From: Spinacia oleracea
Lineage: Eukaryota; Streptophyta; Magnoliopsida; Caryophyllales; Amaranthaceae
Assembly: GCF_020520425.1 (NCBI RefSeq)
Contig: NC_079487.1
Location: forward strand, 127,184,385-127,248,384
Reading direction: 5' to 3'
Length of the DNA stretch: 64,000 nt
A program made the position numbers and the translations under genes. Each line of letters opens with the position of its first letter. Position 1 is the first letter of the stretch. The notes under the pieces are model-generated. The model worked only from the letters and a program-made list of their open reading frames with translations. It searched no databases and was not told where the DNA came from. Below are positions 5,599 through 57,791 of this stretch, in pieces.

Positions 5599-5638
<40 letters not shown>

Positions 5639-15084: not shown

Positions 15085-15121
15085 ATAGTAACGCGGGGCA
15101 TCGCTTGGGCCTAAAAACTAG
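15085..15121 (+). mobile_element. Helitron 3' terminus
   Basis: CGCGGGGCATCGCTTGGGC (imperfect hairpin) is followed by CTAAAAACTAG then T, the usual Helitron 3' end (hairpin, then CTAG, inserted before T). The matching 5' TC end was not found; the RBM48 duplication upstream could lie inside the element. Confidence 0.6.
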
Positions 15122-23100: not shown

Positions 23101-26100
23101 ACAACACATGAATTAAGCAAAGGCAACTTCTGATGAGAGGTATTGGTTCATACCCCTCATAGAGGTTTATTTTGAATTAGCTAAATCTGCCCAGTGAACA
23201 CTGGAATTACAGTAACATAATAATTCTTCCTAAAGCCTAGAAAACTATTAGAAAGATCCTAGAAAGCAATAGAAAGGAGAAATACAAGTAAAGGAAGGTT
23301 GGATTCTAACATCCTCCCCCACTTAAGCTGTCGACGCCCTCGTCGACTTACAAGAGTTACAAAAGATGAAAGAAAAAGCTCCTATTCTAAACTCTGTAGT
23401 CCTCTCTGCGCCGGTGGTTGATGGCGGTTGCTGGAGTCTTCTCGAATCTTGTTGTGTCTTGATAGGCTGGTGAGTCTTGTGAATCCAAGTCTTCCTTGTT
23501 TTTGGTTTCTGGCTCGGAGCGGCTTGGCTTGAGCTTGCATCTTGTCTCTTGTTTCTGATGCGAGGGGGTATCTGAGATGTCGCCTTTCTGAGTGGCTCCA
23601 TCACTCGCATTGCCGAAAGGTATCGGCCCTTCTCTTTTGTCTTTGTGGGAGTACCTGTACTTCGAACTAGACAAGTTTGTCCACCTGCTACAAGCAAAGA
23701 ATTCAAGTGAGGCATTACAACTGCTTTGCTGGTGCGGAGGAACTCCAATCCAAGCACAAGGTTGAAGTCGTCCATGTTGACGGCAGTGAAGTTCATTTTT
23801 CCTTCCCAGTCTCCCAACTTTGCTTCCACCTGTTCTGCCACACCGAGGATCGGCTTGGCTTTAGAGTTGACGGATTTCATGCTACCGCCTCCTTTCTTGA
23901 GCACTAACCCCAATCTTCGGGCTTCTGCTTCGGTCACAAAGTTGTGAGAGGCGCCGGTGTCTACCATGGCTCGAGCATTCCTCCCATTTACCACGAGGTC
24001 CACGTACATCATGTTTGTGGGTTCCTCTCTTGTCTTCGGGCCCTCTTTCCCCATTGCATACATCATGTAGACGGAACTCATCCTGCGGGGTTCTTCGTCC
24101 TCATGGCATGCTTCTTCTTCTGTCTCTTTTGGGGTTTCCTCCACGGACATGGCCGACAACTTCCTCTGTAGGTTGTCGATCTCCCCTTTGTGTTTGCACT
24201 CCCACCATTTGTGTGGGCCTCGACATAGCAAGCAGTTGAGTCTACTGATGTTTCCCGAGGGCGTGCTGATCTTGGATTCCTTTGTTGATGCGGAAGGTGA
24301 TGACCAGGATTTCTGTGAATCTCCTCCCCCATTTCCTTTCTTGAATCCCCCGACTGAGCTGGACGACACCCTTGAGTCACTTCTCGCACTCTTGGGTGAG
24401 CTTGGAGTCGGGCCCTCCGAGCTTGTAGGCGTCCCCCTTGTTCCTTCTTCCGAGCGATGACCCCTTCCCGCGGAGTAGTCCATCAATCGCTCTGCAGCAG
24501 TCATAGCGGCCGAAAGCGTGTCCACTTTCGCCCTCAATACTTCACGCTGCGCCCATTCTTGCAGCCCGTGAACAAAGTTGAACAACCGATCTTTCTCATT
24601 CATGTCTCGGATGTCCAACATGCAGGCCGAGTATTCCTTCACATAGTCGCGTATGGAGCCCTTGTGGCGGATCTCCTGTAGCTTCATTCTTGCAACAAAC
24701 TCGATGTTCTCGGGATAGAATTGATCTTTGAGTTCCTTCTTGAACTCTTCCCAGGTGTCTATCTTTACTTTCCCTTCTTCGATGTCGGCGTGCTTGGTGC
24801 GCCACCACAGCTTCGCATCATCCGACAAGTGCATGGTCGCGGTATCCACCTTTAGATTGTCACTCAGTTGACAAATTCTGAAATACTGTTCCATGTCGAA
24901 GAGGAAGTTATCAACTTCCTTTGAGTCTCTAGCCCCACTATAGTCTCGAGGCTTTGGAGGTTTGATCTTCATCGCACCACCTCCATTCGAGTCAGTCCTT
25001 GCAGCGCGCATCAGTGTCGCGCATTTATCTTGGGCATCTTCAGCTTGCTTCTGGACAAAGTTGAGTTGTTCCTGAAGCGCTTCTTTCTCTTGCATGAGCT
25101 CATCGACCGCACCCTCGAGTCTTTCTATCTCTTTGGCTTGGCCAATCACAATTTCCTCGAGTCGGGTCCAGCTCTCAGACTTGCCTTCTAGCCAGGCTAG
25201 TCTTTCTTCGATCGTTTCCATCTCAAATTGCTTGCTTGGGTCTCTCGATGCCTAGGTTTGAACCTTGGCTCTGATACCAACTGTCACGGTCCGAGTGTTT
25301 TGACACCGGATCCGTGCGGCGCGCTCTTGCCTATGGGGCGGCAAGGGCGCAAGCCTTGTGCGGAAAGTGAATATCAAGGCTTGGGGCACGAGCGGACGTC
25401 TGCTTTAGAATGGGCACTCTTGCCTATTGGCGACAAGAGCGAGAGTCGAGGGTCGATCGAGGCGCTTGTGTGCGCACAGCAGGCACAAGCGGGACCGACG
25501 ACGGGAGTGTATCTGTTTTGCAAGGGATTTTGATGGGTCTTGGAAAGCTTAAAAGCATGCGACAGCACAATATCTATAAAGGCTAGCAACAACACATGAA
25601 TTAAGCAAAGGCAACTTCTGATGAGAGGTATTGGTTCATACCCCTCATAGAGGTTTATTTTGAATTAGCTAAATCTGCCCAGTGAACACTGGAATTACAG
25701 TAACATAATAATTCTTCCTAAAGCCTAGAAAACTATTAGAAAGATCCTAGAAAGCAATAGAAAGGAGAAATACAAGTAAAGGAAGGTTGGATTCTAACAA
25801 CAAGGCTATCAAGGAATCCAACCAGGGTTGCATTGGATGAACTGAGACAGCTGAATCGTCTTGTACTCCGCAAATCAATACCTTCAAATTGGCAACGTCG
25901 ATAAATGTCACATCTGAATATTAAAACAATACCAAATAAGTCTTAATAGGTTCTCTATGGGGAGGGGCTTGATTCCTGGAACCAGGAAAAGGTTTAGAAG
26001 TTAGGAAATCCAATGGTTTCGGACTTTTGGTTACATGCCGACCAAACAATTTCAGTGTATAGGATAAATGATGTTGATCTCCTTCTCTCCTCAGTGGAAA

Positions 26101-26892: not shown

Positions 26893-29509
26893 TTTGATTG
26901 AATAGTGCAACTTAAGATTAAGTTTACAGGCTTCTTCCTTCCTAAAAAAATGTTGTCACGGAGAAGGGACACCTGAAGAATCTAAATACAAACATGTGCA
27001 GGTCAGATTTCAGAGTAAAAAAAGGCTGGTAACATATGAAACAAGCTTCCAACATATCATAAACTATAGGGATATTCAGTTCAGCTCCTACATGCCAACA
27101 AAATTCGATATTTAGTAAAAAGCAAGAATAACACTAACAGCCTAACAGGGTAAACTTGGCAAAACAAACAGAGATATTAATTACCTAGCTTATCTTGGTT
27201 ACTTTATAAAAATTCACACTACCACATAAATAATTCAATTAAATTTTCACTTCTAAATTTAATAGACATTCAGCCCCCTGTCCAAAAATGGAATGATGAA
27301 CATCCAAACAAACTTGACCCATAAGAAGGAATAATGATAACATTACAGATTTTCTTATAGTTAACCAATAATTATCATGGAGGAAGAGATTAATGTCTAT
27401 TTCCAACAGGCACGTCAAACCCCAAGGTCGCCTGACGTACATATGGTCCATGTTTATCTATGGATTTAAGTACAACCACCTTGTATTTTCTCTCCTACAA
27501 CACAATTGACACACTTGCATACAACATTGAAATATGTCAGGTAAGTCTGATGTGGTTGCTTCTCAAATCACAATCACAAATAAAACTCCTGCTCTTTCTT
27601 AAGACTTCATCAAAAGAAAGGTCAGGAGGATAACAACCACTGAACCACTTAAGGGTAAAGATAAACATCTTACTTCAAATTCCCTCACTAGCATACCATA
27701 ACAACATCCCACAATATACAATTCCAATATCTAGCAGATACACACTTACACAGTGCCACAATAGACTTCCAACATTATCATAATCCACGCAGTAGGTCTG
27801 TATATCATATGGCATTGGAATAAGGCACTTCTTAAAGAGAATAAAGAGCCAGTTAAATGAAACAAAATCAAACAGAACAACAATCCCCAAGAATACTCTC
27901 ATCTATTTATCAAAAGTTAAAATGGTACATAAGAAGATGTGAAGTCCTGAAATATATGTGCATTTACTAGACTTATTGCTTTCCACAACCTTTGTGCCAA
28001 GAAGTTTACAGCCTCAGCAAATATTTTCTTCATTCAAGACAGGAAGCCAGTCCATAATCCTGGCATCCTACACACGTTGCCCAGCAAAAGATGGTTGAAG
28101 TCTCAACCTCCCCACCACAGAAGAACAAACAAAGGGATAAAAGCATCAAAGGACAAACAAGGAGTTGAGACTAACTCGATAACGGATCAGCGACTAAGAG
28201 GTTCAAGTGGTACTTAAAAAGTTAAAATTTCTAACTTAAGACAGAAATACTGCAACTAAGTTCCAACCAAGATTGTTATATCTCCAAACCACAAATAGTG
28301 CCATCCAACTTGATTGCCATATGTACCAACATCAAAAAAGCTTCTACCATTATCAGTTTCATACTTAGCCTGATTATATAAAATAAACACAAAAGGCAGA
28401 ATAATAATTTATTTACATCACAGGTAAAAAGGGAAAATTATGCTACAGATTCAACTAGATGGATAAAAGGGCAAAGCATCATCAGATGATACAACAACCA
28501 ACTAACACAACTGTAGATGATCATGCTCATCAATTCAGATATACCCTTACTAACCTAAAATCAAGACTTTTCTAAAATCTTAGTAAATCAGCAATTAGAT
28601 GAACCCTAAAGAAATCCCATCTTTTGTTAGTCAACCTGGACAAATCAAATGTCCAAAACCTAATCAAAAACCCAACAAACCAAAAAAAAATATCACCCAA
28701 AAACTGAAAAGATTCCTAGATTCCTTCAAAGCAAAAACACAAGTATAGACAATCAAAAAACAGAATATCATCCACATATATCAAAAATCAAGGGGTGATT
28801 CATAATTTTCCAGAAAAAAAAAAAATTAATTGCTGATTACCTTCAAAAATTAATCTCCTTTGAATTCAACTTCAGCAGAAAAACTCAAGAACAGATCCTG
28901 TCATTACCGTTCATATCAAAATAATTATGGCATACCCCATCAAAGCAAAAAAACAAAAAATGAACTTCATCCAGAAAGGTTTAATCTTTACCCAGAAAGC
29001 AAATTAACCAAGCATTAAAAATAAAAACCAAGACAAAAAATTAGGTATATGAGCTGAAAATACAACAAACCTCAAAAAATGGGTGGAAATTATTTACAGA
29101 GAAATATAGAGAGAGAGAAAGGATTATCAGGAAGATCCGTGAAACGCCATAAATACGATGGTAGAGCTCATAAATTAGCACCCAGAAATGGAAGAAAAAA
29201 GGAAGCAGATATGGAAAAGAAAAAGGGGAAAGGGGGGGAAAATTAAGTTGTGGGAATTTTAAGGTGAGGAGAGAGAAAGTGAGAATAATTGGAGTGTGGG
29301 AGGAGGTGGGGTGGTGCAGGTGCAGGTGCCCGTGATGCCGTTGTGTGTTGGGTAATGGTATTGGATTTACGCAAACTCAATTCTTTATTTTCAGAAAATA
29401 AAAAAAATTAGTAGGTACAAGAATTACATGATGAATTGCACCAAATATTGAATAAACTGCATGATGGGAAATGATCAATATTCAATATTAGTAGCCAGTA
29501 GGTACAAAC
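26893..29509 (-). other. 5' UTR introns and promoter side of the SBP1-like gene
   Basis: On the minus strand, about 29,330-29,072 is a CT-rich leader-like stretch ending ATTTTTTGAG|GTTTGTTG, a plausible donor of a non-coding first exon. Another possible donor (GAAG|GTAATC) lies near 28,842. Between there and the ATG at 26892 no coding frame is supported. Confidence 0.45.
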
Positions 29510-29518
29510 CGCAATTTC

Positions 29519-29570
29519 GATGGTGCAGGCGTGTGCACCTAGATCTAGGTGCACTGGGATTAAAACGCAA
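29519..29570 (+). repeat. Left terminal inverted repeat with palindrome
   Basis: GATGGTGCAGGCGTG, then the palindrome TGCACCTAGATCTAGGTGCA, then ATTAAAACGCAAA. It matches the reverse complement of the right end with few differences. Confidence 0.9.
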
Positions 29571-29800
29571 ACATTTTAAAACAAAACGCGTATTTTCATT
29601 AATTCTGCAGTTAAAAAGAACAAGTCTCACAATACAAAAGAACATCATGTGCTCTGTTCTTCCCTGTTTAGTTTTCGCGATTTTTTTTGTTCTTCGCTCC
29701 TTTTTATATGTCTGGGCTTCATAATTTTGAATTCAAAAAGTGTGAATAGGAGAGAGAAAGCTTACATTTGTGCATAAATTTTTTTTAGAGAGAGAAACTG

Positions 29801-32800
29801 ATGGAAAATTCTCAAATATTCCATGATTTCTCTGTTTCAACATCAATTTCGAATGATTCTTCTTCTTGTCATCTGAATTCTTCAGCTGAAAATCAGAGTT
29901 ACGAAGGTATTATTTCAATTTGTAATAACGAGTTGCATTTTTCTTTGATTTTATGATTTCGATTTCATAATAATCGTACTTTTTATGTTTTTTGTGATTG
30001 TAATTAGTTTGATTAATTTAATTTTGAATCTCATTCTTCGTTGATTTTGGTGATTGTTGATAATGAAGGTTACGAATTGGTTTTTTCGTTGATTTCGCAT
30101 TTATTTCATTTATGTGGTGAAACTGATTCTGTAATAACTATTATATTTAAGGAAGATACGTTGATTTTGTCTGTTTGCAGAAAAGAACATTGTATCATTT
30201 CAGAAGAACATTTTTCAGTATCAAATGAACATGTTAAGAATACGTATTGAGACGTTCCTTTTTATTATATTTAGCTTTTCAAATAAACACTGATTGTTCT
30301 TTATTGATTGTTCTTTTAACTCTTCATTGATTGTTCTTTAAGTCATAGTGTTCTTTTCGGTCACCTTTTGTGTTCGTTTACTCTATTTTTATTGTTCATT
30401 TTAATAGTTACTGTTCCTTTGATTCTTTATTGGTTTTTTTATTATATTTGCACGGATTTTTCTTTTATGTTTTTATGAGTTTACATTGTTCTTTTGATTG
30501 ACAAAATTGATTGTTGATAATTATGCCGATATTGTTCTTTTAGGTTTTAATGTGTTCTTTTGATTGACAAAACTGATTGTTCTTTTAACTGTTTATTGAT
30601 TGTTCTTTTAATGCGTAGTGTTCTTTCCAGTCTAGTTGGAGTGTGTAATTTACTCTTGATGCATTGTTCTTTTCTAATAGGTACTGTTGTTTTTTATTCT
30701 TTATTGGTTGTTCTTTTATATCTGCCCAAATTGTTCTTTTAAGTTTTAATGTGTTCTTTTGATTGACTAATTGATTGTTCTTTTAACTCTTCTTTGATTG
30801 TTCTTTTCATGCCTAGTGTTCTTTTCAGTCTACATGGATTGTTCGTTTACTCTGTGCATTGTTCTTTTTAATGGCTACTGTTCTTTTAAGTTCTTTTGTT
30901 CTTTTTTTTTCTGATTTTTTTTATTTTATAAATTTCCAGATATATTAAATAATTCAGTTAATAATTCAGAACAAAATGATGCTAATGAGGATCCAGAATC
31001 CTATGTGGTTATTGGCCAAGGTACATGAATTGTACTTTTACTTGTTTATCACAATGTTCGTTTACGTCTTGTGTTTGTTCCTTTATCATACTTATGATGT
31101 TCTTTGTGTTCTTTTTTATCGTCATGCAGATTTTGAAGAACCAGTTTCATTAGAGGGAAGTGTAGTTAAGGATGATGATGAGGCGTATGAGTTATACAAC
31201 AGTCATGCATTTAGGAATGGTTTTGGTACTAGGAAGGGTAAAAAGGAGTATAGAAGTGGTACTAGAATAGTTCGACAACGGTTTTTTGTTTGTGCATACG
31301 AGGGGTTTAAAAATCCAGATGGTGTTGTGCCTAAATCCTTTAAAAAAATTGATAGGAGAACTGGATGCAAGGCTTCAGTTCAGTTTGATGTTGATAAGAA
31401 AACTGGAGTGTATGTTCTTTCTAAACATTCCCGTCTGCATAACCATTCAATGGTTCCTGCTAATAAGAGACACCTTATTAGGTCACATAGGCACATTTCA
31501 AAAGAACAATTGGCTTTTCTTACTACTTTTACTTGTAGTGGCACGAAGCTTGCTGATGTTCTTAGAGCTATGAGGAAAGAAGTTGGTGGTGAGGCGAATT
31601 TAGGGTTCACTGTTCCTGACGCGTATGATGCTGTTTTGGCAGAGAAGAAGAAAAAGTTGGATGGTTGTGATTCAAATCAGTTGATCAGATGGTTCGCTAT
31701 GAGGCAAGCTAAAGAACATGATTTTTATTATGATTTTCAATTGAATGAAGAGAATCAGTTGATCAATTTTTTTTGGAGAGATGGAAGAATGCGGTCTGAT
31801 TATGAAGCTTTTGGTGATTTATTGATTCATGATACAACTTATCGTACTAATAAATACGATATGATTTGTGGGCCTTTTGTTGGAATGAATCTTCACACTC
31901 AAAATATCATGTTTGGAGTGGGTTTTATATTGAATGAGAAGGCAGGTACTTTTGACTGGCTTTTTAATTCTTTTTTGACTTCAATGGGAGGGAAGCAACC
32001 TGTGACTATCATGACTGATCAATCTTCTGCCATGGACAAGGCTATAAGGTAAAGTTCTTTTAGGTTGTTTGTATGTTCGTTCATCAAACACTTTTGTTCT
32101 TTTGTATTTTTGTACAATTTTTTATGTTCTTTTTCTTTTGTCTTTTTGTTTAGTTTATATTTTTATCTATTTTTTTGGTTTATGGTTTTTTAGGGAAGTG
32201 TTTCCAAAATCGAGGCATCGTTTGTGTACATGGCACATAGGGGAAAATGCTGTTGTAAACATCAAAGGTGTTATGGCCAAAGAAGGTTTCAAACGTCGGT
32301 TTGATTATGTTTTGAAATATACTGACACAGTTGCTGAGTTCGAGCATTATTGGAATAGGTAAAAATTATTTTGCTAATAGACTGATTAGTATTTAAAATT
32401 TTGTTTTGTTCTTTTCATTCGACGACATGTTTTTTGTAATGTTAAATAGTGTTCTTTTCATGGTTGATGAAACTTGTTCTTTTAATCTGGTATTTTAATG
32501 TTCTTTTCTTTGTTTAATAGAGTCCATACTTCTTGAACTGTGATTGTGTGTACTTTCTTTTCAAGTTTTATTGTACTGTATATTGTTCTTTTTTTGTCTT
32601 CATTTGTTCTTTGTTTTACTCAGGGCGTTCGTTTTGTGTCTCTGATTGTTCTTTTGTTCTCCTCGTTTGTTCTTTTGTAGTCTTATGACTGATTACAATT
32701 GCAAGACACACAAATGGATAGAGAGGTTATATGATTTGAAAGAGAAATGGTGTCCTGCATATAACAAAGAGTGGTTTTCTGGGGGTATTTTATCTTCTCA

Positions 32801-34311
32801 AAGGAGTGAGACGACAAATCATTCTATTTCTAGGAGGTTGCATAAAACGAATGGTTTATGTGATTTTTATAAGTGTTTTTTAGATGTAATTGATGAATGG
32901 AGAAGTAAGGAGAACAAGGGAGATTATAATTCTTCTACTGGAAATAGATATTACGCATGTGCGGATAACATGTTATGTTTGCATGCGCGGGATGTGTATA
33001 CCATTGCAATATATTTGATATTTGAGCAACGATTCATCAAAGCAATTGGTTTGAGGTGTCAACGCATTTCCTATGAGTTTCCAGTTTCTAAGTACATTGT
33101 TGGGCATCCTACAAAGGATTTTATTAGACATGTTGTGATGTTTAATGAGCAAGAGTTGGTTGTTGATTGTACTTGCAAGTCATATGGAGAGATAGGAGTT
33201 CTTTGTTCTCATATTCTTCGAGTTTTCATTGTCCATAATGTTGAAGAGATTCCCAAACAATACATTATGAAGAGATGGACCAAAAAGGCTATGAACATGA
33301 TTGTTGAAGAAGGAGAAGATAGAGATAATGAAGTAAGTGTTGTTTCTGCTTCAGTTTGGAGGATGCAAAGCATAAGAAATTGCATTAAAGTTATAAATGA
33401 AGCTCAACATTGTCCGGCTGCAAGGAAGCTTATTGATTTGGGTGTGTTGGATATGTCATGCAAAGTGAAGGAGTATATTGGTGGTGTTGAAGGGGATGGT
33501 AATGTATCAAACAAGTATGTGCGAGAAGAAACTCTACTTGATGGCATTGAGCCTTCAACAGACACAGTTTTGCCGGATGTTGTTGAACCGATTGCTGAAA
33601 AAGTCATTCCAACAATGATTCAAAATCCACCAAAGCGAAAGAGGAAGATTAAGAACGGGACTGAAAAGGCTAAAGAGAGGAATGTGAGACCTAAAGGAAT
33701 TGTTGAGAAGAAACGCAATAAACTGAAAGGTTGGAACAAGAGAAGAGAAAGACATGTTGATAATTTGAGGGAGGAAACTCAGTCTACTGATCAGGTAAAC
33801 TGTTCTTTTTAAACATTTATTTGTTCTTTTATTACTTTGGAATGTTCTTTTTGTTTATCATTGTTCTTTTTTCCATTTTTATTTTCTATTTATCCTTTTT
33901 GTTTATGATCTTTTAGTTTACTTTATTATGTTCTGTTCTTTTTAATAATCTATTTGTTCTTCTATTCCTTTAGTTTGTTCCTTTTGTTTATCATTGTTCG
34001 TTTTTCTTTCTATATGTTCTTTCGTCTTTTTGTTTATGTTCTTTTGCTAAACAGTTCATTTTTAAAAAAAACATCTATTTGTTCTTTTAATGTTTATTAC
34101 GTTCTTTTTTGAACTGTTCTTTTTTATTATCTATTTTGTTCTTTTTTCTTCTTTATCATGTTCTTTTATTCCTTATTGTTTGTTTGTTCTTTTTCAGTGT
34201 ATCATAAATTTACCTGTTGGTGGGGTTTTGGTTCATCCAACATCTTCAAATTCACAATTGGAAGCATATGTTCCAGATGATTATTTTGGAGTACACATAC
34301 AACCTTTGTAG
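29801..34311 (+). CDS. FAR1-type MULE transposase
   Basis: Six exons: 29801-29906, 30940-31020, 31130-32048, 32194-32358, 32681-33794, 34198-34311. All junctions are GT/AG, phases agree, 832 aa, no internal stop. A FAR1 DNA-binding domain (about 80-170) contains SHAFRNGFGTRKGK, GCKASVQFDVD and HNHSMVP. The MULE transposase core has DTTYRTNKYDMICGPFVG (D297), TIMTDQSSAM (D359) and HRLCTWHIG. A SWIM zinc finger, CTCKSYGEIGVLCSH, covers residues 587-601. The C-terminal tail is basic and Lys/Arg-rich. It would bind the element ends, cut and paste the element, and may also act like host FHY3/FAR1 relatives. The first ATG after a leader rich in GA repeats was chosen. Intron DNA is dense in GTTCTTTT; exons are almost free of it. 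Confidence 0.9.
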
Positions 34312-34856
34312 ATTCATTTACGATTGGTAATATTTTTATTTTTAGTTTGTTGTGTTTTTAATCATTTGTTTTTGTATTCTCAACAATGTTCTTTTACTCT
34401 TTTGATGTATATTTTTACGGGCTACTGATGTTTGGCTCATTCAATATTTTGAAATGAGAATTTTTAGTTGTATATATTCTTATTTTTGTTTTTATTTTTG
34501 TGCAATTAGGATTGCAAAATTATTGCATAAAGGAGTATATTCTTAAATGTGAAAAGAACTTACTAAAAGAGAATAAAAAGAATTTTGGAAAGGAAAGAAC
34601 ATATCCCATGATATAGAAGAACATGGTCTGGGATTGAAAAGAACTTGAACCTTTAATTGAAATACTTGTTTAAAATATCCAAACTACTTATCTGCAACTA
34701 CTAGAACATCTAATTGTTTCCAAAAGAACACCACACATGTTTAAAAGAACAACCCATAACTCCAGCAATAACCATATCTACAAAATATACCATTGTTTTT
34801 TAAAGCATACTTCTAATAAAAGGTAAATATTATTCTGCCTTCATGAAAACAACCAA
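34312..34856. other. Tail-to-tail space between the two MULE genes
   Basis: The motif changes from GTTCTTTT (to about 34,395) to its complement AAAAGAAC (from about 34,550). Both genes' 3' UTRs must lie here. Confidence 0.6.
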
Positions 34857-37800
34857 CTATTCAACTTGATTAGCTCTCTTCAATGCCAGATACATTAGCT
34901 CATGCCTTTTGTTCAGAACGGATAATAAGATTTCAGTACCGTACCGCATTCTCAGCCTGCAAATAAAGTCTTTCTGAAAACATAAAATAGTACATTAATA
35001 AAAGATTATATATTAAAATAATATACGTACATATATTCAAAATTTACTTACATCTTCATCTGTGTTTTTGAAGCCACAATTCCAAGTCTGGTTGCCTTTG
35101 TAGGTCTCCATATGCCTCATTGCATATACCCCACAATCAGTCTTGTTTGTTCTGTTCTTCCATGGCATTTCAAGCAACACAATTTCATATGCTGAAATCT
35201 GTGCCTTCCGCAAAGGATGTCCTTCTTGTTCAGAAAATATTGTCCATGCTTCAAACTGAAATAAAAAGAACATTTAACTTAGTAAAAGAACAAAGAACAA
35301 CAAAGAAACATAGAACAACAAAGGAAGGAAAAAAGAACATTTAATTTAGTAAAAGAATAAAGAACAACAAAGGAAAGAACAAATAAAATATATAAGAGGA
35401 AATTCTTCAAATAGACTTACAGTTCTTTCTGCAAATGTTTTATATTTATCATCATATGTAATTCCTTCAGGTAAGGAGAGATTGTCAATGATCTCCACCT
35501 TCTTCGCCTTTTGGTTGATTACAATGAGATAAAAATGATCACCAGACCAGACTGGAAAGAACAACTACAAGCAGAGAAAAGAACATTAAACAAAGGAAAA
35601 GGAACATATGTAAAAAAGAAAAGAACAATTTATAATTTTACCAGATGGAATCCCTTCAAAGACTTCACACCAGCAGTTTCATACTCATGGCGTACACTTA
35701 AAATAAAATTTTCTAAGCGTTTGCTTTCGGTTGCTTGACTATCCTGTGATCCACCATACGGTTCATTCTGGCAGAGCATATTCTGCACCGAAAAAAAAAT
35801 AATTTTAAATATATGTTATATAATAAAAATTATTGAAGAAGTACGAAAATATGATTTTTTAGTGATATTAAAACTTACGAAAGGGATTGTAGAGAAATAG
35901 AACTTCAAGTTACTCTTGACACTTTGATCTGGATCATCATTCAGTATTCTTGCAAAAGTGTCAATAACATTATTCATCACCCACGCATTGGGAGCTGTTT
36001 TAAAGGAAAAGAACAAAAATATGAGTAAAAGGAACATCAACAGCATTTAAAAGAACATTTTAAATTCCAATAATTAAATATATACCTAGGGTTTGAAACT
36101 CTTCTCTGGTAACTATATTCCAATCATCAGTGTACAACACCTGACTGTTATAAGAATGAAAATAAAATTTCCATAAGAACATGTACAAAAAGAACATCTA
36201 CATTCAAATACTTGTAATAGTATAAAATTCTTACGTTGGGCTTCCCTTTCCAAAGGCATAATCCAGTACGCATCGCATGTCCTTTTCCTTTTGATTCAAC
36301 TGTTCTTCCCCAACCAGTAGGTGTGAATACTGAGTTAAGAAGGGTGACAGTAACTTGAGGGGAACATTTTTCTTTCTCTTAACAAGTTTAGGTACTTGTA
36401 CGTTATCTGGATCCTCTTCCTCACTTATGAAAACAAAGACATTATAAAGTAAAAAGAACATATTAGAGGGAAAAACGAATTCAGACTAACAATAAAAAGA
36501 ACAACAAAGTGAAAAGAAAAGAACATTTTATAAATGATAATGAAAAATAACTTGTAATAATAAACGAAAAATAACTTATAAAATAAAATGCAGTAGTCAT
36601 ACTCTATGTTCATAGATGTAGGTGCATTTTCTGGTTGCGAGTACACCGCACTTGGAGTGCTAAAAGAGTGGAAAGAAAAGAATATATTACTATAAATAAA
36701 AAGAACAAAAGCGAGAAAGAAAAGAACATTAAATTGAAGATTATGAAAATTATATTTTAATAAAATACAGTAGTCTTACTTCAGGAATATTGATGGAGTT
36801 TCCATTTCAGTCTGCGACTCAGCAGCAGTTGGAGTATTAAACTCGGATTCTTCAGTTCTAACAGTTGGAGACATGGGGTTTCCATCTTCAGCTCCTTTGA
36901 TTAAACCTTCCATAGTCTGAAACTCGGAGTCTTCAGTTCTAACGGTTGGAGACATTGGTTTTCCATCTTCAGCTCCTTGGATTAAACCTTCCATATCTGA
37001 TCTCACATTTTCAGGTTCTCTGTGTATTACAAAAAAAAAATAAGAACATGTGAGGAGGAACAAAGAACACAATGAGAAGAATTAAAGAACAAAAGTGCAA
37101 TGAAAAAGAACATATAAGTTAATATTAAAAGTAGGAAGATATTAAAGTAAATATAGAAAGAACATAAAGAAATATATGAAAGGAACATTCCGAATAAAAG
37201 AAACAAAAGATCCATTAAATAATTGTATAAAGACAGAGAATTAATAAAAAGAACAAATCAAACGAATAAAAAAACAAATAATTGTTTATAAAAGAACATT
37301 GTGAATAATGAAAGAAACAGTCACATATTTATTATACATGTGTATGTGAACTGTTTTAAAAGAACGCATACTCAGTTTTTTCTGTAGGTGGCTGTTGTTT
37401 TTCAGCTTCATTTTTGTTGTCCCCTGAAATTGTCTCCAAATCACGTTCAGTCAAAGTTTTGTTTGCCAAGATTGCTTCTAATCTCATTTCCTCTTCAAAG
37501 TCGTGTGCCTGAGGAGGAGGATTTGAATCGGAAACCATTCCAAGCTTCAATGTCAAATCAGCAAATACATTAGGCTGGGAAGGCATGATCGGAGGTGTTA
37601 AAAATGGTGGCAAATCAAATGTAACATCCTCAGATTCCTTGATTTCCTTTCTTTCATTTCCTTCTGTTGCCTTTCGTACTGCTTCCTCAAATAGTATTGT
37701 GAAGTAGTCTGAACTGAAAAATTCTTTATCTTGACTGAGGATTGAACCAATCTCCTCAGTATTCCTTCCTTCTTGCCGCTCTTCTGTAGAGTTGCCCTTC

Positions 37801-40800
37801 TCAAAAGTAACTGGAATTTCAGTTCCAGAGCATGTTGACCACATTTTTGCCATATTGAATGGCAGACTTTTTTTGACATCAATAGTAGTGTCAAAGAACT
37901 TTCTGGACAACGACAATAAGTCGTTGAACTTGTTCATGACACTACTGAGTTCAGTAGTGGTTTTAGTGAATTCAGCATGGAATTCCTGTTTAACAATAAC
38001 AACAATAAGGACTGGATAAATAAAAAGAACATTCGAATGGAAAAAAGAACAAGAGAGATCCCTAAAAGAACATTCAAGTAGAACATAGAAACATTGTTAA
38101 AGATCGAAAGAACATGTTAAAGAGATAAATGAACATGTAAATAACATGCTTAAACATATAAAAGAACATTCAAATGTAAAGAACATCTTTTTAAGAAAAA
38201 AGAACATGCTTAAATAACATGAATAAACATTTAAAAGAACATGTAAAAGAACGTAAAGAACTAGTTTTTGATAAAAAGAACATAAACACAGAAAGCAAAA
38301 AACATGGTAGGAAAAAAGATTATATTGAGTACGTAAAAGAACATTTGTTGGAGGAAAAAGAACATTACAACAAAAACGTTGAAAAAATAAATGCAATGGT
38401 TTTGTTGAGTGAATTTAATTTTTACCTCAATTGTAGAAGGGACTTTTGCTTTCTCACTGGGGTCTGCCTGTTGCTCTGGCAAATCTTTGTCATCCCCGAG
38501 TTGAGTCACTGGTGCACCTTGATGTTCTCTGGACACATCATTTGTGGACCAGTTAGGCTCTTGGTGTTGATGTTGCTGTTGTGGTTGCTGCAGTGGTTGC
38601 TGCGATGGTTGTTCATCATGTTGCTGCTGTTGTTGTTGTGGGTGTTGAAGAAGAAGTGGTGGTGGTTGTTCACTGAGTGCTTTTTGCTGTTTGAGCAGCT
38701 CCATATCCTCCCTGTACAGTTGTAGCTCAGGTGGACCTTGAATTCTGTCCAGAATCAAGCCATGTCCGAAGCCTGTAGCATTGTCATTGCGTACCCTGCT
38801 GCTTATCATATCTCTTGTCCAGCAAGAAATTAGGGGGAAGTTCCTTGGAGGGTACTCTTCCATGATCTGCACCCGATCGAAATAACATACCTAATTTAAC
38901 AATAACAACATAATTTATTGTTAGTTAGGTGAAAGAAGAAGATGAAAGTAATATATATAACAAAGGGAAATGCTAGCTTAATGATTGAAATTTACCATTA
39001 GAAATGGTAGTGGACCAGCAAACCATCTGCTACGGTCCACATTCCAGTACATAGCTGCCCCAAGAAGGCTGGTGTATGCATACTGGCACCAATTTAGATT
39101 CCTCACTTGCTCCAAGTCAACAGTGCTTGCTAGGAATCTGAAGTTTGGCTTTTGAAACAGAAAAATATAAAAGAAAAGAACATTAATTATGATTTTAAAT
39201 AGAATAAGAAAATAGAACATTCAATAGAAAATAAAGGAACATTAGAGAGAATGAAAAGAACAATGAAAGAAGAGCAAAAGAATATTGAATACAACTGAAA
39301 AGAACACAACTAACATTCATATAAAGGAAAGTACAACAATAGGACAGTGAAAGAGAAAGAAAGAACATGGAATTCGACAAACAAATAAAAGAACAATAAA
39401 TATTAATAAACATTTAAAAGAACATAATACGCAAACAAAAGAACATTAATGAGAAATAAAAGAACATAAATGAGAAACAAAGGAATTTTGATGTAAGAAA
39501 GAACATGGAATATCATACAGAATAAAAGAACAGTGAGAAATATTTAAAAGAACATAATACGCAAACAAAAGAACATTAATGAGAAATAAAAGAACATTAA
39601 TGAGAAACAAAGGAATTTTGATGTAAGAAAGAACATGGAATATCATACAGAATAAAAGAACAGTGAAAGAGAAAGAAAGAACATGGAATTCGACAAACAA
39701 ATAAAAGAACAATAAAAATATTAATAAACATTTAAAAGAACATAATACGCAAACAAAAGAACATTAATGAGAAATAAAAGAACATTAATGAGAAACAAAG
39801 GAATTTTGATGTTTACCGATAAATTAGTAGTGGATTTAATGCAGGTGTTAACTGCAACCACTAGGAAAGATCTCTTCCAGTTATCATCAACTGGAGTCTC
39901 ATCTTTGATCAGTTTTTCAACCATTTCTTTCAATTTTGGGCATCCAGACTTCACTTGCCAGTATGCCCAAAATTCAGCAAAAACCCTCAACACTTCAGGA
40001 TCTTGTTCATCCGTCCATTCCACGACCGGAGCTCCTCCAATAGGTATACCGTACACCAGGTATACATCCTCTACAGTAATATCAAGGGAAGACTTTGGTA
40101 GATGTAAGGACCGGTCGGACGAGTTGAAATTCCTAACCAACTCGTACGGGAATGGATTTTCGTTTTGTGGGATGTCAAGTTGCAGAAGAGATCCAAAGCC
40201 TAACTCCACGATGGCTTGTTGTTTTCTTATATCATGTGGTTCATTAGATGCAATTCCCCTCAAGAATCGCATCATCAATTGCGGAGTTTGCCTTAGATTT
40301 AGTTTCCTTTCTTCAGGTTTTGGTTTGGCAACAACCAAAGATTTTGGTTTCTCATCATCCACCTCCTCCATGACCTCATCAGAAACAACAATTTGTTTAC
40401 TTCTTGTTGCTCTCTGGAAAAAAGAAAAAATATAAAGAACATTAGTCAGGGAGTAAAAGAACATTATATGGAAGAAAAAGAACAAATAACTTAAGAAAAT
40501 TTTTGACCTTCTCAACTACTTTTTTCCCCTTCTTCATTAAGGGTTCACTTTCCTCTTCTACTTCTTCACCTTCTTCTTCACCTCCTTCTTCATCTTCCTC
40601 GTCTTCATAAACCTCCCTCACAACTATCTGATTAACTTTGCTACCCCTCTGAATGAAAAAAGAACATAAATGATGATGTAAAGAACACAAGACAGGAAAA
40701 AAAGAACATTCTTTATTTAAAACACAGCATTTATCTCTATTATAATATAACATTAAGGTAAATAAAAAGATATACAAAAAGGGTAATGTGAAGTTTACCT

Positions 40801-43323
40801 TAAGTGCTGCAGTCTTTTTCAAAGTAACTCCATTCCCCTTCTTAGCATTTGGTGCAACTTTTTTTGTTGAAATTTTCTCAGCAGGCAACAAGCTCTTCTT
40901 CTTATGTGCCTCTTCCAATTCCTGCTTTACCTCTTTGATAAGATCGGGAAATTCTTCTTTCAGCAATTGACTTCTGTTGACCAAAACAATAGAACATAAG
41001 TAGTAAAAAAAAAGTAAAACACAGAAAATAAAAAGAACACCATTTATGTAAGTTACCTTGTCCTTTTCCTGTTTGGTATTGATTTCCTAGACTTCCCCTT
41101 TGCTTTTTCAGGTTCCTCACCAGCTTCTTCTCCGTCTTTTTTCTTTCTAGTAAAAACATAAATGCAAAAGTATGTTTAAGAAACGAAAAATAACAACTAC
41201 AATGTAAATATGAAATAGTATTAACAAACACAGATGATACCTCAAAGTAATTTTTAAGTTCGTTTTCTTTTCTTTTCTTTCTGGTTCATCCAGCTCTTCT
41301 GGAACTTTTACCTCAGCCTCCTCTTTTTCAGGTTCTTTCACTTCTTCATGCACTTTTACTTCATGCTCTTTCTTTTCAGTTTCTTCCTGCTTTTCAGGAT
41401 CTTTGCTGGAATTTTTTTGTCCTTCTCCACCCTTCTTTTTTTGTTCAATCAGATCCAGCTGCTTTTCCTGTTGTAGCAGCTTTTCCTGAAGTGCTTGCAC
41501 CATCTTCTGTTGTTCTTGCAATGCTTTCCTTTGTTTGGAAAGTCTATAATGAAAAAATATATGTCATGAAAAAAAGAACAACACCAAAAACACATGTTAT
41601 GAAAAAAGAACAACAGAAAAATGTTTAAAATAACACATGTAATGGAAAAAGAACAACATGTCGTGTACAAAAGAACACAGCTATGCTTTTGGAAAGAACA
41701 CATATTATGAAAAAAGGAACAACACAAAAAACAAGTGCACAGTTCTCATCCTGCACCCTTGTACAATATCTTATTCATCTGATTTTTTTTATTTTTTCAT
41801 ATACAATATATAAATAATGTTTGTCCTCCATATTCTCATTCATTCATCATTTCATAATTTTAGCAACACATTTTAGAGAGAGAAAAATGAGAGGTTTTAT
41901 TTTCTCTCAACAGAAGAGAGAATTTAAGAGAGAGAAAGAGTGAAATGCGATTTCTACTTTCTTCTCTCTCCAACTTTTCGCATTATTGTTCCTGTTTTTT
42001 TGAGAATTAGTGAATTAATCAGAATACTAATTCTCAGGAGATGAAAAAATACAATTTGCTAATTTTCGTAGAAAGAAAATTGAAGGAGATAATGAAATTC
42101 AAGAGGATTGTGATCATTTGCTGAGGATTTATGTTGATGTTGTTGATAAATGTTGTTCAACTGTTGATCAAGGTATGCTTATATGTTCCTTTTCTTATGT
42201 TCTTTTTATTAAGTGTTCTTTTACTGTGTGCTAACAGTTTTAGGTTTGTCTTTTAAATGTAGATGGTTTGTTCTTTTATCCGTGATTGATTGTTCTTTAT
42301 TTTTTAAAATACATTTAAGAACAAGTAAAAAGAACACCATCTTATCAAATCTAAGCACATTGTTCTTTTTAATTTTCATTGATTGTTCTTTTAATGCCTA
42401 GTGATCTTTTAAGTAGACATGGACTGTTCTTTTCTTCTAGATGCATAGTTCTTTTTAAGCCTACATTAATATTGTACTGTTCTTTTGAGTGTACATTGGT
42501 TGTTCTTTTGAGTCTACATTGATTGTTCTTTAAACCTGCACAGTTGGTTCTTTTAAGTTTTTATAGATAAGAACATAGATAAAAAAGAACATAGATCAAA
42601 TTCAATAGATAAGAACAAAATTATAGATCTAGGTTTAAGTTCGTCAAAATTGTACTGTTCTTTTTAGTCTATTTGTTGTTCTTTTAACCTGGGCGAATTG
42701 TTCGTCAAACAGTAGGGCTAATAAAAAGAACAGACAGTAAATAAATAAAAGAACATAGATCTACTTATTTAATTTAAATTTCCACTGTTCTTTTGAGTTA
42801 ACATTCGTTGTTCTTTTAAATCTATACCATTGTTCTTCTAAGTGTATGATTCAGTGACTTAAAATACATTTAAAAAAAAACATAAATGTAGATCTACTTT
42901 TAAATTCGTTAAAAAATGTATTTGGTTTCGTTATTGTAATTAGAACATTAAGGAAAACAAAAAGAACAAACAGAAGGTGTAAATGAACCTAGGTTTTTGT
43001 TTAAAAAATCCACTTACTCGCTCTCTTCTTCTTCTTCTTCCGTTTCTGAAACTTCTTTGTTGATATCTTCCAACAAATCCGCATCAATTGTTGGTGTAAT
43101 TTCTTTCTCTTTCTTCTTTTTGTTTCTTAAGTTCAATAAAGTCGTTGTCAAAGGAACATCATCCCTTCAAATGAAATTTTATAGAAAATTAAAATTCATG
43201 GGAAATTCTCTAAAAATTAAAATTAAACTGAAATTCAAGAAAAAAGAAAAGAAAAATGAAGTTGAATTCTTACTCAATAGAACATTTCGCATCAACTTCT
43301 TCTCCTTTTTTCGATTTCCCCAT
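34857..43323 (-). CDS. MULE second gene: coiled-coil / plant-mobile-domain-like / Ulp1 protease
   Basis: Nineteen exons from the ATG at 43323 (MGKSKKGEEVDAKCS) to the TAG at 34857: 43274-43323, 43018-43164, 41241-41543, 41057-41146, 40799-40973, 40508-40648, 39817-40413, 38996-39148, 38426-38866, 37372-37985, 36780-37019, 36603-36659, 36235-36423, 36086-36144, 35879-35994, 35642-35782, 35421-35564, 35052-35255, 34857-34973. Sum 3,978 nt, phases consistent, 1,325 aa. Residues 1-300 are Lys/Glu-rich with coiled coil; 303-560 resemble the plant mobile domain-like region (LGFGSLLQLDIPQNENP, DITVEDVYLVYGIPIGG). A Gln-rich linker and a repeated 'MEGLI.GAEDG.PMSPTVRTE' pair follow. The C-terminus is a C48 cysteine protease with His1181 (GDHFYLIV), Asp1198 (EIIDNL) and Cys1260 (KTDCGVYAMRHME). 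Such genes would remove SUMO-like tags. Comparable genes ride on plant MULEs (Kaonashi type). Confidence 0.85.
39350..39815. repeat. Repeated block in intron 7 of the Ulp1-type gene
   Basis: A unit containing TTTAAAAGAACATAATACGC recurs at about 39,413, 39,545 and 39,730, with longer blocks (GAAAGAACATGGAAT...) repeated around it. The intron evidently grew by duplication of motif-bearing segments. Confidence 0.8.
41544..43017 (-). other. Intron 2 of the Ulp1-type gene with an opposite-strand island
   Basis: About 41,860-42,175 looks like a plant 5' leader plus a coding-like stretch on the plus strand (in one frame FANFRRKKIEGDNEIQEDCD...VDQ before a possible donor GTATGC), without an in-frame ATG. 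From 42,180 to 42,860 GTTCTTTT is on the plus strand, against the host gene's orientation. It could be the first exon of a third, unfinished gene. Confidence 0.45.
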
Positions 43324-44367
43324 TTTCAATTGTTAGGGTTCAAGTTTTTGTAACCAGATTATCACTTCCAAAAAACAAATTGGGGAAGTTTTTAGAGTGA
43401 AAATAGTAGAATTCCAAATTGGAGAAGTTCGGATTTGCAATAATTTGAAAGGTTTTGCACTGTTTTTTTGATTGTTGGTGAGTGAAGGTTTTGCATGTAG
43501 GTTGAGTGTGAAAGTGAAAATAAATGTCGCATTCAATGATGTCTTTATATATGATAAATTGAAGAGAGAGAAAATAACTGCTACAGTATTTTCAAATTTA
43601 AACTTCCTTTTTTTTTTGTTGTTCTTTTCGTCCGCTCTTTTGTTCTTTTGGCCTATAAGTAAAGAAAATGATGTTCGTTTGAGTCTCCTTTGTGTTCTTT
43701 TTATTATCTGTTGTTAGTATTTTTAAATTTGTTTTTTATTAATGTTTTTACTTAAATTATATTTTTTAATTTTTTTTATTTTAAACAGTAATCTACTTTT
43801 TAATTTGTTAAAATACAAAATGAAAGACAAGTAACTTATTTAATTTTTTTTTATTAAAAGATTTTGAGGAGAGAGAAATTAACTGCCACGTTTTATGTTT
43901 TCATAGGAAAACTTCTGTTTTGCGGTTTTTTTCTTGCCACGTTCATTATTTCAATAAAAAACTTCTGTTTGGCGGTTTTTTTCACTTTTTAACGTTTTTG
44001 TTGTTCTTTTCGTTGGTTCTTTTGTTCTTTTGTGCGTCTGGTGTTGCATTTGCCATGTTCTTTTTAAAAGTGCAGAGAAATCGTTCTTTCCTTGTTTTAA
44101 CCTTTCTGGTTTTTAATATGTTTGTGTTTTTCTTTTTTTCTTTTTGTTCTTTTCCTTTACTTTCTGATCTTCTCTCATTTTAGTGTATTATGTTCTTTTA
44201 CGTGTTTTAATCTTTTTGGTTTTTAATATGATTGTTCTTTTCTATTTGTTCTTTCGTTTAATTGCTGATGTTCTTTCTTTTTAGTGTTTTATGTTCTTTT
44301 ACGTGTTTTTACTTATTGTTCTTTTACGTGTTTTTATTTATTTGTTGTTTTAACCTTTTTTGGTTTT
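43324..44367. other. Right internal flank of the MULE
   Basis: Presumed promoter of the Ulp1-type gene (minus) at about 43.33-43.6 kb. From 43.6 kb on, GTTCTTTT is on the plus strand. No coding exon. Confidence 0.5.
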
Positions 44368-44790
44368 CAATGCTATTGTTCTTTCCTGTTTTACTTATTG
44401 TTCTTTTGGTTTAATTCTTGATGTTCTTTCTTTTATATTTTTGTGTTCTTTTATATTTTTTGTTGCTTTTTTATGTTTTTGCGTTTTGTTCTTATTTTTC
44501 TGCGTTTTCAATGCTATTGTTCTTTCCTGTTTTACTTATTGTTCTTTTGGTTTAATTCTTGATGTTCTTTCTTTTATGTTTTTGTGTTCTTTTATGTTTT
44601 TTATTGCTTTTTTATGTTTTTGCGTTTTGTTCTTATTTTTCTGCGTTTTCAATGCTATTGTTCTTTCCTGTTTTACTTATTGTTCTTTTGGTTTAATTCT
44701 TGATGTTCTTTCTTTTATGTTTTTGTGTTCTTTTATGTTTTTTATTGCTTTTTTATGTTTTTGCGTTTTGTTCTTATTTTTCTGCGTTTT
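44368..44790 (+). repeat. Three tandem copies of a 141-bp GTTCTTTT-bearing unit
   Basis: Units begin CAATGCTATTGTTCTTTCCT at 44368, 44509 and 44650, nearly identical. Because 141 is divisible by three they create a spurious long open frame. The array ends just inside the right terminal repeat. Confidence 0.9.
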
Positions 44791-44842
44791 GGTTCAGGTG
44801 CACCTAGATCTAGGTGCACGCGCCTGTACCATCCGCGCGTTG
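44780..44842 (-). repeat. Right terminal inverted repeat with palindrome
   Basis: TGCGTTTTGGTTCAG, then the palindrome TGCACCTAGATCTAGGTGCA, then CGCGCCTGTACCATC. It is followed by the target-site copy at 44843. Confidence 0.9.
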
Positions 44843-44851
44843 GGTACAAAC

Positions 44852-46972
44852 TACTATTAAACCAACTACGAAAGAGGAAAAAAATCTGTTGAAAATAGAG
44901 AAAGAATTGAAGACGATTTGGTAAACCGTAAACGTTTGTTTTTCGAAAAATTATGGATTCCGTTCAAACATCTTTAGGTATATCAGTGGTTGTTTTGTTG
45001 CACATAGGAAATTACTCGTATATTCTTGTTTGGTTCAAATGAGAATTAAATTTTCATGGCCTCATGGGAAGTTACTTACCTTGGAAAAATTCTTAGAAAA
45101 TTGATTACCCTTGTTTGGTTGGCATAGGGCATTCACTCTTCATGGAAATTATGACTTACTAAGGGGGGATGGGTAAACAACTTCCATGTGAACTCCAAAT
45201 TCCTTGGAAGTCTTATTTCTTCCTCTAATTGCTTGCAACCGAACATCAACTTAAATTCGCATATTCTCATGAAGTTTGACTTCATGGGAGGTGAGTGAAA
45301 TTGATTAGCTGGTCATACAAATTTGGAATTTGCATGCAAAGTTTTGTTTAACCGGGGGGATCGGTAAGCAACTCCCCCATTTTAAAGAAAGTACTCCGTA
45401 TAACTTTTCAAGAGCTATTATGTCTTATGTCCATATCAATCAAACAACTTATCAATCTTTTACTTCCTATAAAATGTCATTTTTCATAATTTAGATGTCA
45501 ACCAATCAACCCCTTAATTACATTTTACCAAAAAATAAGGATACAATTTTTTTTTTGGAAGAAAAAATAAGGATACATTATATTCACCTCATATAAGATA
45601 TGTTGTGTTTTACCTTGTTTACGGTATAAACTTGGGTATGAAGTTAATAATAGCAACTCCAATGAAATTAGCTTGTCATCTTGCCTAAGATTTTAAGCTA
45701 ATTAACTTTCTAGACATTATATAGTTTATATTTCAATGTCGAGTTACATTACCAAACTACGGAGTAGCTTCATATTTAATTGGGTCTACATTTACATTTA
45801 ACCATTTAATTTTAATTGTATTTTGAATTTTGAATTTTACTATTGGACAATTTTTTTTTCCAAACAAACTAGTTTGTACAACCTAATTTGTTTGGCCAAG
45901 CTAATTTATTAAAATCACTCTAAAGGTTAAGCTAGTACCTTGAAACTTTTGTAAATTGCAAGCAAGTCTCTATCCACTACCAGTGGATTACTCAAGTACA
46001 ATTTATAACCTAAAAGAAGTATTAAAAAGTTCGAATAAGTCGTATAATTTCATTTGCGTTTGGTAAACGAAGATCATATAAATGAAACGCGCCCATAGTA
46101 TAATTTAGGTACATATAATAGATTGAATATGTGACAACGTACAGTATATTGTTAAGAAACTCTTGGTTGTGTAATGTGTATGGTCTATACTTTAGATCAT
46201 TCCCCCAACCTAATTTGGCGTTAAGATTGAAATTTTCTAGATCAAACTATTTACAACTTGTTAATTCTAAATCATCTTTTATACGTAATTACAGGAAAAA
46301 TAATAAACGTAAGGAGTAACCGTTTAATTTGGAGAATTTATACTTTAACGGTGTGATCTCGGCTATGAACCTTCATTGTTATGTTTTTCTTTGTTGTCTT
46401 TGAATGCAAAACTTCAATTGTCAATAACTTAAAATTTCTTTTATATAGCTTAATTTAGTGCAAACCTATTTAGTAGCTACCTTTCTGCAGCAACAGAATT
46501 ATGTATTGGCCCTTAGGATTGGCAACCCTCAGTATCTCATCTTGGATACAATTTTATGCGAGAACCTTATGGCTCTGCCATACTTTTTACATTTCCAAGT
46601 GCATAGTTATGAACTTTTAATTTCTTGGAGTTCCTTAATTCCAGTCATGTGTCGCTGGTGAAATTTGAAGAGAACAAGAAATGTACATTCAACGTAGTTG
46701 GTGACTTTGAAAACAAATAAAATAACTGTGTCACTGACGAACTCGCAACGAACATTGCAAAATTGATAAAAACGTAATAAGATCCCGCATTTCTCCGTGT
46801 GTACAAATCATGCGATATGGTCAGAGTAAAATGTGAAAAGAGTGTAAATGTACGTCCAGCTGATGCAATTAAAAAAACAACAATAGCAAATCATATGAAT
46901 ACGTACCCTTCAATTTGGGGCGCCAAATTTATTAGATCTAAATAGTTAGAGAATCTTGCGCTAGAAGAAGTT
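44852..46972. other. Gene-free spacer with degenerate MITE pieces
   Basis: About 44,990-45,385 contains repeated CATGG/AAATT segments related to 48,450-48,620. About 45,655-45,990 resembles the 63.2-kb Tourist family (GCTAGTACCTTG...GCAAGCAAGTC). No exon is supported. Confidence 0.45.
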
Positions 46973-57355: not shown

Positions 57356-57791
57356 ATCCTTCAATCTCCAAACTTACATTAATGGAGGTACACATTAATA
57401 CAACAGCTCTATACCATGTTCCAACTGTTTGAAGCTTTTTGAATAGTTGTGCTATCAAATAGCAGGAAATTTGGCAATTGATTGATTGGCGTAATTGATT
57501 TTTGTATTGGGTTATTTTACTAGAGGAATGCCTGATTTTAGAAGTGTCGAATTTCTACTTACCTTTTGCTGTTTGTTTTCATGCCGGTTGTTCCACTCTG
57601 CTGTTTCTGCAATATTGCGTTTTGTTTTGGGGAAATTCAGAAATTCTTAATTGGAATCTTCTCAAATCTGCATACAGAGTACTAGGTATGTTGCAAGTTT
57701 CCAATTGATAGTACACAGTCACTCAATTTCTTTCATTTCTTGAACCTTTTGATTTCAAATTTGTAATATTTGGGGGTTTAATTTGTTCCAG

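Follow-up and report, generated by a model that had tools for sequence, protein, structure and literature searches.

A 64,000-nucleotide window of the Spinacia oleracea genome (contig NC_079487.1) contains a 15,333-bp Mutator-like element (MULE) with terminal inverted repeats (TIRs), at 29510-44842, whose non-coding DNA is filled with one octamer, GTTCTTTT. On balance, we lean towards a reading in which the element is marked by a DNA address tag, TGTTCTTT(T), with GTTCTTTT as its core; the tag would resemble those of VANC systems, and its most likely reader is the PMD-Ulp1 protein that the element itself encodes, acting in anti-silencing. An initial annotation had pointed to the octamer; what our analysis adds is a sharply bounded word, TGTTCTTT(T), its register of about 21–22 bp, and a contrast between word and spacer. 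The element carries two convergent genes. Gene 1 (29801-34311, plus strand; 6 exons, 832 amino acids) is predicted to encode the transposase, and gene 2 (34857-43323, minus strand; 19 exons, 1333 amino acids) a protein with a PMD-like region and an Ulp1/C48-like C-terminus. Both models were assembled manually, from sequence only, by joining open frames at GT-AG sites, and have 23 introns in total; as the splice sites were selected for being GT-AG during model building, they are not independent evidence for the models.

Exact GTTCTTTT/AAAAGAAC sites number 76 on the plus and 68 on the minus strand of the window. The element holds 139 of them, 138 of which are non-coding, and the other 48,667 nt hold 5. 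With strands pooled, AAAGAACA (164 occurrences) and AAAAGAAC (139) were the commonest 8-mers of the element, and the top mixed 8-mer in five other, mutually overlapping 15.3-kb stretches of the window occurred 33, 10, 11, 12, and 10 times. There was 1 site in the 6501 nt of coding sequence (CDS) of both genes. Gene 1 introns contained 41 sense sites and 1 antisense site in 2012 nt, and 22 of the 23 introns of the two genes together (41544-43017 being excluded) contained 89 sense and 1 antisense in 5003 nt, against a mean of 2.87 and a maximum of 8 sense sites in 500 dinucleotide shuffles of the same introns. In the excluded gene 2 intron (1474 nt) we counted 14 antisense and 9 sense sites, in the right flank 18 plus sites (1519 nt), in the left flank 2 minus sites (291 nt), and between the two 3′ ends 1 plus and 4 minus sites (545 nt). 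The initial annotation had described the octamer as saturating the element's non-coding DNA and nearly absent from exons, and both statements hold in these counts, including the comparison with shuffled sequence.

Avoidance of the motif by exons was rejected, as GTTCTTT cores in the CDS (4 sense, 4 antisense) were not below the expectation from 300 codon shuffles (0.75 and 2.23); the low exon density is a lack of accumulation rather than avoidance. Among the 22 introns, the short ones held 9 sites in 1026 nt and the long ones 80 in 3977 nt, and five, all shorter than 115 nt, had no site, as if motif units had lengthened introns.

The word has sharp edges. Across the 22 introns together with 43324-44760 and 42176-42860, exact TGTTCTTTT occurred 113 times and each single substitution of it 0–17 times; the weakest position was the last T, and columns outside the word were near background. 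The sites also recur at a preferred distance. When recent duplicates at 39538-39815 and 44517-44790 were omitted, 46 of the 116 remaining successive (non-redundant) gaps measured 20–24 bp, compared with a mean of 11.0 and a maximum of 22 in 2000 placements that were uniform and ignored duplication history. Such a gap was present in 16 of the 20 blocks with two or more cores. Places with at least 8/9 matches made up a share of 0.50 at offsets of 20–24 bp, 0.41 at 41–45 bp, and 0.24 at 62–66 bp, with 0.04–0.13 at the seven other offsets tested. In 20 gaps of 41–47 bp the best intermediate place matched 8 of 9 letters in 9 cases and 7 of 9 in 7, a count that has no chance control. The 20–24-bp spacing is about two helical turns; plain 10.5-bp phasing was rejected, as no peaks appeared at one or three turns.

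Comparison of duplicated segments within the element showed that the word had been retained better than its surroundings. In two older pairs identity was 0.90 and 0.95 in the motif columns, 0.67 in the remaining columns of both pairs, and 0.79 and 0.78 in T columns outside the motif; 9-mers stayed intact in 13/22 and 7/11 cases, against 4/116 and 2/37 for T-rich control 9-mers. The pair 44136/44237 gave 0.89 for motif columns, 0.77 for other columns, and 0.84 for other T columns (9-mers 2/4, controls 5/60). Because of this conservation and the sharp edges of the motif, we are confident that the word TGTTCTTT(T) is under constraint.

We propose that a sequence-specific DNA-binding protein would read the tag, with several molecules lined up along one face of the helix. 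The reader would most likely be the element's own gene 2 protein, which may cover the non-coding DNA and remove or block silencing marks across the element, as VANC does for VANDALs. The arrays would have grown by tandem duplication of units of about 21–22 bp, chiefly enlarging introns; the spacers would then have drifted while binding preserved the word. For proteins to sit next to one another on DNA, a two-turn register would be required, which favors a DNA-level reading, and we consider it quite probable that the motif acts as DNA. We have a modest preference for gene 2 as the reader and, a shade less firmly, for anti-silencing as the effect. TE-encoded (transposable element-encoded) PMD proteins have been suggested as counter-silencers in a review (PMC8616336).

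The predicted gene 2 protein has its PMD-like region at amino acids 388-562 and its Ulp1/C48-like C-terminus at 1146-1279, the domain-like parts being separated by charged and Q-rich stretches, an architecture that would be expected by analogy with VANC proteins. Exon 7 (39817-40413, minus strand) encodes the bulk of the PMD-like region, with the remainder in 38996-39148 and the start of 38426-38890; exons 1 and 2, beyond the 1474-nt intron, are the least certain part of the model. Pfam searches with the whole protein gave PMD at 2.7e-5 and C48 at 8.7e-4, both under the cutoff (C48 just under), and a fragment search placed C48 above it (E 4.9e-5). The PMD match spans profile positions 16-190 of 347, so that gene 2 probably carries a partial PMD. 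The residues of Ulp1 proteases are a His-Asp-Cys triad and an oxyanion Gln. The gene 2 C-terminus matched yeast Ulp1 (1euv) with E 0.005, the stretch aligning H, D, and C scoring just 3.9 bits and the Gln being unaligned, a weak match by which the region is a putative protease. An 81-bp tandem repeat (2 copies, 92%) in the gene 2 CDS at 36839-37000 yields a pair of repeated peptides in the region that separates the PMD-like from the Ulp1-like part.

Of the two candidate readers named in the initial annotation, the Ulp1-type protein is favored, and the FAR1-type transposase is less likely in view of the binding site published for FAR1/FHY3 (below). It is rather unlikely that the tag is read by another factor, the element's own FAR1 transposase or a host transcription factor, for assembly of a transposition complex or for transcription, comparable to the binding of subterminal repeats by TnpA of En/Spm. 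FAR1 is an element-encoded DNA-binding domain, every argument for a DNA-level tag applies equally to such a reader, and AAAAG contains the Dof core; against this, the motif fills introns and flanks and is not confined to the ends, and another site is more plausible for the transposase. PMC13306707 gives CACGCGC as the site of FAR1/FHY3, and the sole CACGCGC in the window, counting both strands, sits in the right TIR (44817), suggesting that the transposase probably reads the ends. Among proteins encoded by the element, that of gene 2 is then the best remaining candidate; the alternative is a host factor.

Several points weigh against a tag that gene 2 reads. The analysis is based on one copy of the element in one sequence. 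Non-redundant gaps of 41–47 bp, of which there were 17, lay within their null when taken by themselves (mean 8.3, maximum 18), and the register alone could be an inherited tandem-unit length. Spacers of different blocks were 0.371 identical against 0.361 when shuffled (standard deviation 0.003), about 3 standard deviations above, and those within a block were clearly more alike (0.497 against 0.382). Eight duplicate pairs were aligned; three of them are too young to be informative, and the alignments were partly anchored on the motif, which inflates the contrast somewhat. The pair 30774/42359 had about equal identity in motif (0.90) and other T columns (0.89; 9-mers 4/9 against 4/15), and in 43978/44196 both stood at 0.77, although whole 9-mers were kept in 5/12 cases against 1/233. 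On the side of the reader, the PMD (PF10536) match of the gene 2 fragment, at E 1.4e-6, lies below the cutoff (28.2 bits against 34.9), Pfam gave no known DNA-binding domain in gene 2, and the structure model of exon 7 was useless (pLDDT 34.7, a confidence score). Neither DUF1985 nor DUF287 was matched at a maximum E of 5 (whole protein) or 10 (PMD fragment), in searches where HMMER filters drop most very weak matches. For gene 1, protein pattern searches of IMG/VR and GTDB contigs returned 3 and 7 matches, none of them a relative by tblastn; these searches of viral and prokaryotic collections covered gene 1 and the TIR, not gene 2, and plant copies are not expected there.

The motif ran in one orientation over long distances: minus at 29614-30181 (3 sites), plus at 30310-34388 (42, with one minus CDS site between), minus at 34552-41669 (56), mixed at 42199-42960 (14 plus, 5 minus), and plus at 43621-44727 (18). 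Barring the mixed stretch, this broadly agrees with the earlier description of plus across gene 1, minus across gene 2, and plus again on the right. The left subterminal flank has a pair of motifs 22 bp apart (29614-29643, minus), antisense to gene 1. The intron 1 array of gene 1 (30310-30905, plus) has 18 sense sites in the intron and intron 5 (33795-34197, plus) has 12. Orientation switches between the convergent genes at 34388-34559, the last plus site being at 34388 and the first minus site at 34552. The 56 consecutive minus motifs (34552-41676) occupy the 3′ flank and introns of gene 2, one of which (39149-39816, minus) has 16 sites, partly through a recent 130-bp tandem duplication. The right-flank array upstream of gene 2 (43621-44734, plus; 18 sites) consists partly of 141-bp tandem units. 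The proposed rule that the motif follows the sense of the gene therefore stood in 22 of 23 introns (89:1) and at the switch between the genes, and failed in both upstream flanks, where the motif is antisense, and in the 23rd intron (14 antisense, 9 sense).

The mixed array of that intron (42199-42967) contains a segment, 42359-42487, that is 79% identical over 130 bp to intron 1 of gene 1 (30774-30898), and because of this partial resemblance its orientation may be inherited from the source array. Directly before the array, 42031-42172 is a plus-strand exon-like stretch followed by GT, perhaps what is left of a 5′ end similar to that of gene 1. Plant introns tolerate T-rich inserts, and purine-rich inserts of the AAAAGAAC type resemble exonic enhancers. 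With the word masked, the T content was 51–52% in introns and 57% in the right flank. Intron polarity is best explained by splicing tolerance for T-rich rather than purine-rich inserts, together with copying of arrays within the element; as the right flank is T-rich though upstream of gene 2, splicing tolerance accounts for the polarity only in part.

At first sight the sense bias favors RNA, and an RNA-level signal, in which GUUCUUUU in the introns and UTRs (untranslated regions) of element transcripts recruits a splicing, export, or protection factor, would account for that bias in 22 of the 23 introns, in genes that run in opposite directions, for the flip between convergent genes, and for the T-rich context. 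We nevertheless regard it as improbable. Motifs within 30 nt of 3′ splice sites numbered 12 of 89 against 12.5 expected, with no enrichment to support a polypyrimidine tract or splice enhancer; the motif is missing from five of the 22 introns, each below 115 nt. Most sites in 41544-43017 (14/23) are antisense to gene 2, as are the 18 right-flank sites upstream of its start. The two-helical-turn register has no obvious meaning in RNA, and no Rfam match reached the gathering score. The RNA alternative raised in the initial annotation is thus weakened by the splice-site count, the register of about 21–22 bp, the upstream-flank arrays, and the largely antisense intron. Least probable of all is that the motif has no function and is a T-rich minisatellite spread through introns, with coding selection removing exon insertions and the register an inherited unit length: tandem units are evident, low exon density is not due to avoidance, the recent 130- and 141-bp duplications carry motifs along, and spacers within a block still resemble one another, but spacers of different blocks are near random while the 8–9-bp word persists, and older duplicate pairs lose T-rich control 9-mers and often keep the word, where neutral decay should erode both alike.

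Returning to the tag read by gene 2, we compared the element with known systems. The likeness to VANDAL/VANC put forward in the initial annotation fits well as regards a short, dense, non-coding motif, mostly of one orientation per array and tandem-derived, with a candidate reader encoded; the annotation's interpretation is partly supported overall. In VANDAL21 (Hiun)/VANC21 and VANDAL6/VANC6 of Arabidopsis, PMC5735166 likewise describes a short motif that is dense in introns and in intergenic and terminal non-coding DNA, with uniform orientation within arrays and a tandem-repeat origin. In our element the motif is dense in non-coding DNA and rare elsewhere (the remaining 48.7 kb of the window has 5 sites), and arrays are tandem-derived and of one orientation, with the exception of 42199-42960. 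There is a second element-encoded protein in both cases; VANC has variable regions that often hold tandem peptides (PMC5735166), and gene 2 has the 81-bp CDS repeat. The motif itself differs, being TGTTCTTT(T) and not YAGTATTAY or the AGTTGTCC/AGTTGTAC carried by VANC6 targets (PMC5735166). VANC and RNA-directed DNA methylation act on the same non-coding targets (PMC10398659). The helical periodicity of VANC targets has its counterpart here in the register of about 21–22 bp. Motif sequence, density, and helical periodicity reportedly set VANC specificity, and VANC domain sets are said to have changed within eudicots (Sasaki and colleagues, 2022); if this holds, the register is a predicted hallmark, which strengthens the functional reading and lessens its novelty. 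By this analogy the element likely works like a VANC system.

Unlike VANDAL21 and VANDAL6, however, the element has a FAR1-domain transposase, clear TIRs of about 70 bp, and strong gene-sense polarity in introns; a PMD-like region replaces detectable DUF1985/DUF287. Its membership in VANDAL is not established, as three defining features gave a different result. In the second protein PMD (1.4e-6) was found instead of DUF1985 (and DUF287), and the TIRs, degenerate or absent in VANDALs, have 71-bp arms that are 82% complementary, although some group-45 relatives contain TIRs (PMC6446971). The transposase matched FAR1 at 4.1e-14, where the group-45 row of PMC6446971 lists SWIM/CCHC and not FAR1. 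We suggest tentatively, as a reading somewhat less likely than not, that a FAR1-type TIR MULE outside the VANDAL clade may possess its own sequence-specific means of anti-silencing: a PMD domain joined to an Ulp1-type protease would read pairs of TGTTCTTT(T) two helical turns apart.

An Ulp1-type protease domain is shared with Ulp1-bearing VANDALs and Kaonashi (KI-)MULEs and with the ULP-MULEs of grapevine, melon, and rice; in KI-MULEs it lies in reverse to the transposase, as here, and KIU-carrying VANDALs are reported to act on their own non-coding motifs (PMC13317346, PMC2528002). According to the review PMC13317346, which cites Sasaki et al. 2022, Ulp1 is present in the VANCs of some VANDALs, and those elements likewise act through non-coding motifs. 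The Arabidopsis Ulp1-bearing MULEs are described as non-TIR elements with mudrA (PMC13317346, PMC2528002), whereas ours is a FAR1-type TIR element with a PMD-like region. The FAR1 N-terminus, the SWIM C-terminus, and a TIR length within the listed 39-292 bp resemble the Jittery group (group 36), but for the FAR1-bearing dicot/monocot Jittery group one open reading frame (ORF) is listed, and here there is a second, antisense PMD-Ulp1 gene with motif arrays (PMC6446971). In the same source PMD is recorded, sometimes or often in antisense, for several groups of MULEs, and the VANDAL group is entered as 'PMD and/or DUF in half the members'; PMD capture by MULEs is reported for grasses and Amborella (PMC5418596). 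In the PMD proteins MAIN/MAIL1, as here, a PMD is linked to a short DNA motif, the promoter 'DOWN' motif, and to TE silencing; those are, however, host genes, with the motif CATGCAGTTT in the MORC1 promoter, and direct recognition is not shown in those sources (PMC7156037, PMC9899485). VANC anti-silencing, including Ulp1-bearing VANCs, is already in print; the present case differs in being a FAR1-type TIR element, in its PMD-like region and the lack of a DUF1985 match, and in a motif unlike those published for VANC21 and VANC6. A literature search on the element and motif gave, judged by title, only two relevant VANC papers among the matches listed. TnpA of En/Spm, from another superfamily, is also an element protein that binds many copies of a short motif and affects methylation, with its sites confined to the ends.

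The element is intact, with TIRs, a perfect target site duplication (TSD), and two unbroken gene models. Its borders at 29510-44842, as first annotated, are borne out by the TIR arms and by perfectly matching copies of the 9-bp TSD GGTACAAAC at 29501-29509 and 44843-44851. The left 71-bp arm (29519-29589, plus) pairs with the right (44763-44833, minus), and each contains the perfect 22-bp palindrome GTGCACCTAGATCTAGGTGCAC (29533-29554 and 44798-44819), of which these are the only two copies in the window; a search for it in IMG/VR gave 0 matches. Gene 1 matched MULE (5e-27), FAR1 (4.1e-14), and SWIM (6.2e-4) in Pfam, so that a FAR1 N-terminus, a MULE core, and a SWIM C-terminus occur with TIRs and a 9-bp TSD, as in FAR1-type (Jittery-like) TIR MULEs. 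Nothing reached the gathering score in an Rfam scan over 29400-44950. Runs resembling GAGAGAGAAA were noticed by eye several times close to where transcripts of the element presumably start, at about 29787, 41875, 43563, and 43870.

Beyond the element, a 642-amino-acid ORF in a GC-richer stretch (23323-25251, minus) matched retrotransposon gag (including Ty3 capsid-like) and aspartic protease, and ORFs at 20186-20752 (minus) and 57715-58086 (plus) matched RING-finger and bromodomain and are probably exons of host genes. The 8-mers AGTAACTA, ATAGTTAC, and ATAGTAAC occur 32–33 times each in 1-15333, apparently another repeat. A triple-motif pattern was found in 31 stretches of IMG/VR, which we provisionally take for chance in AT-rich contigs; in one contig (L028:6558-6935) the triple-TGTTCTTTT pattern matches four times in a row, at intervals of about 100 bp.

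In the literature surveyed, as far as those sources go, sequence-specific anti-silencing encoded by a transposon has been demonstrated experimentally for the Arabidopsis VANDALs only. If our reading is true, a second MULE lineage would have the same DNA design with another protein architecture, which would suggest that the strategy is general or repeatedly evolved. In that case, motif-addressed anti-silencing would have emerged in, or spread to, more than one MULE lineage, and PMD proteins would serve as its readers, a role that the host proteins MAIN/MAIL1 may also have. It would provide a new pair of motif and reader for targeted epigenome editing, and PMD domains, which as host genes also control silencing, would gain a testable role in reading DNA. 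Should the proposed reader prove wrong, the question can still be tested directly, because the word is better conserved than what surrounds it and recurs at a helical spacing.

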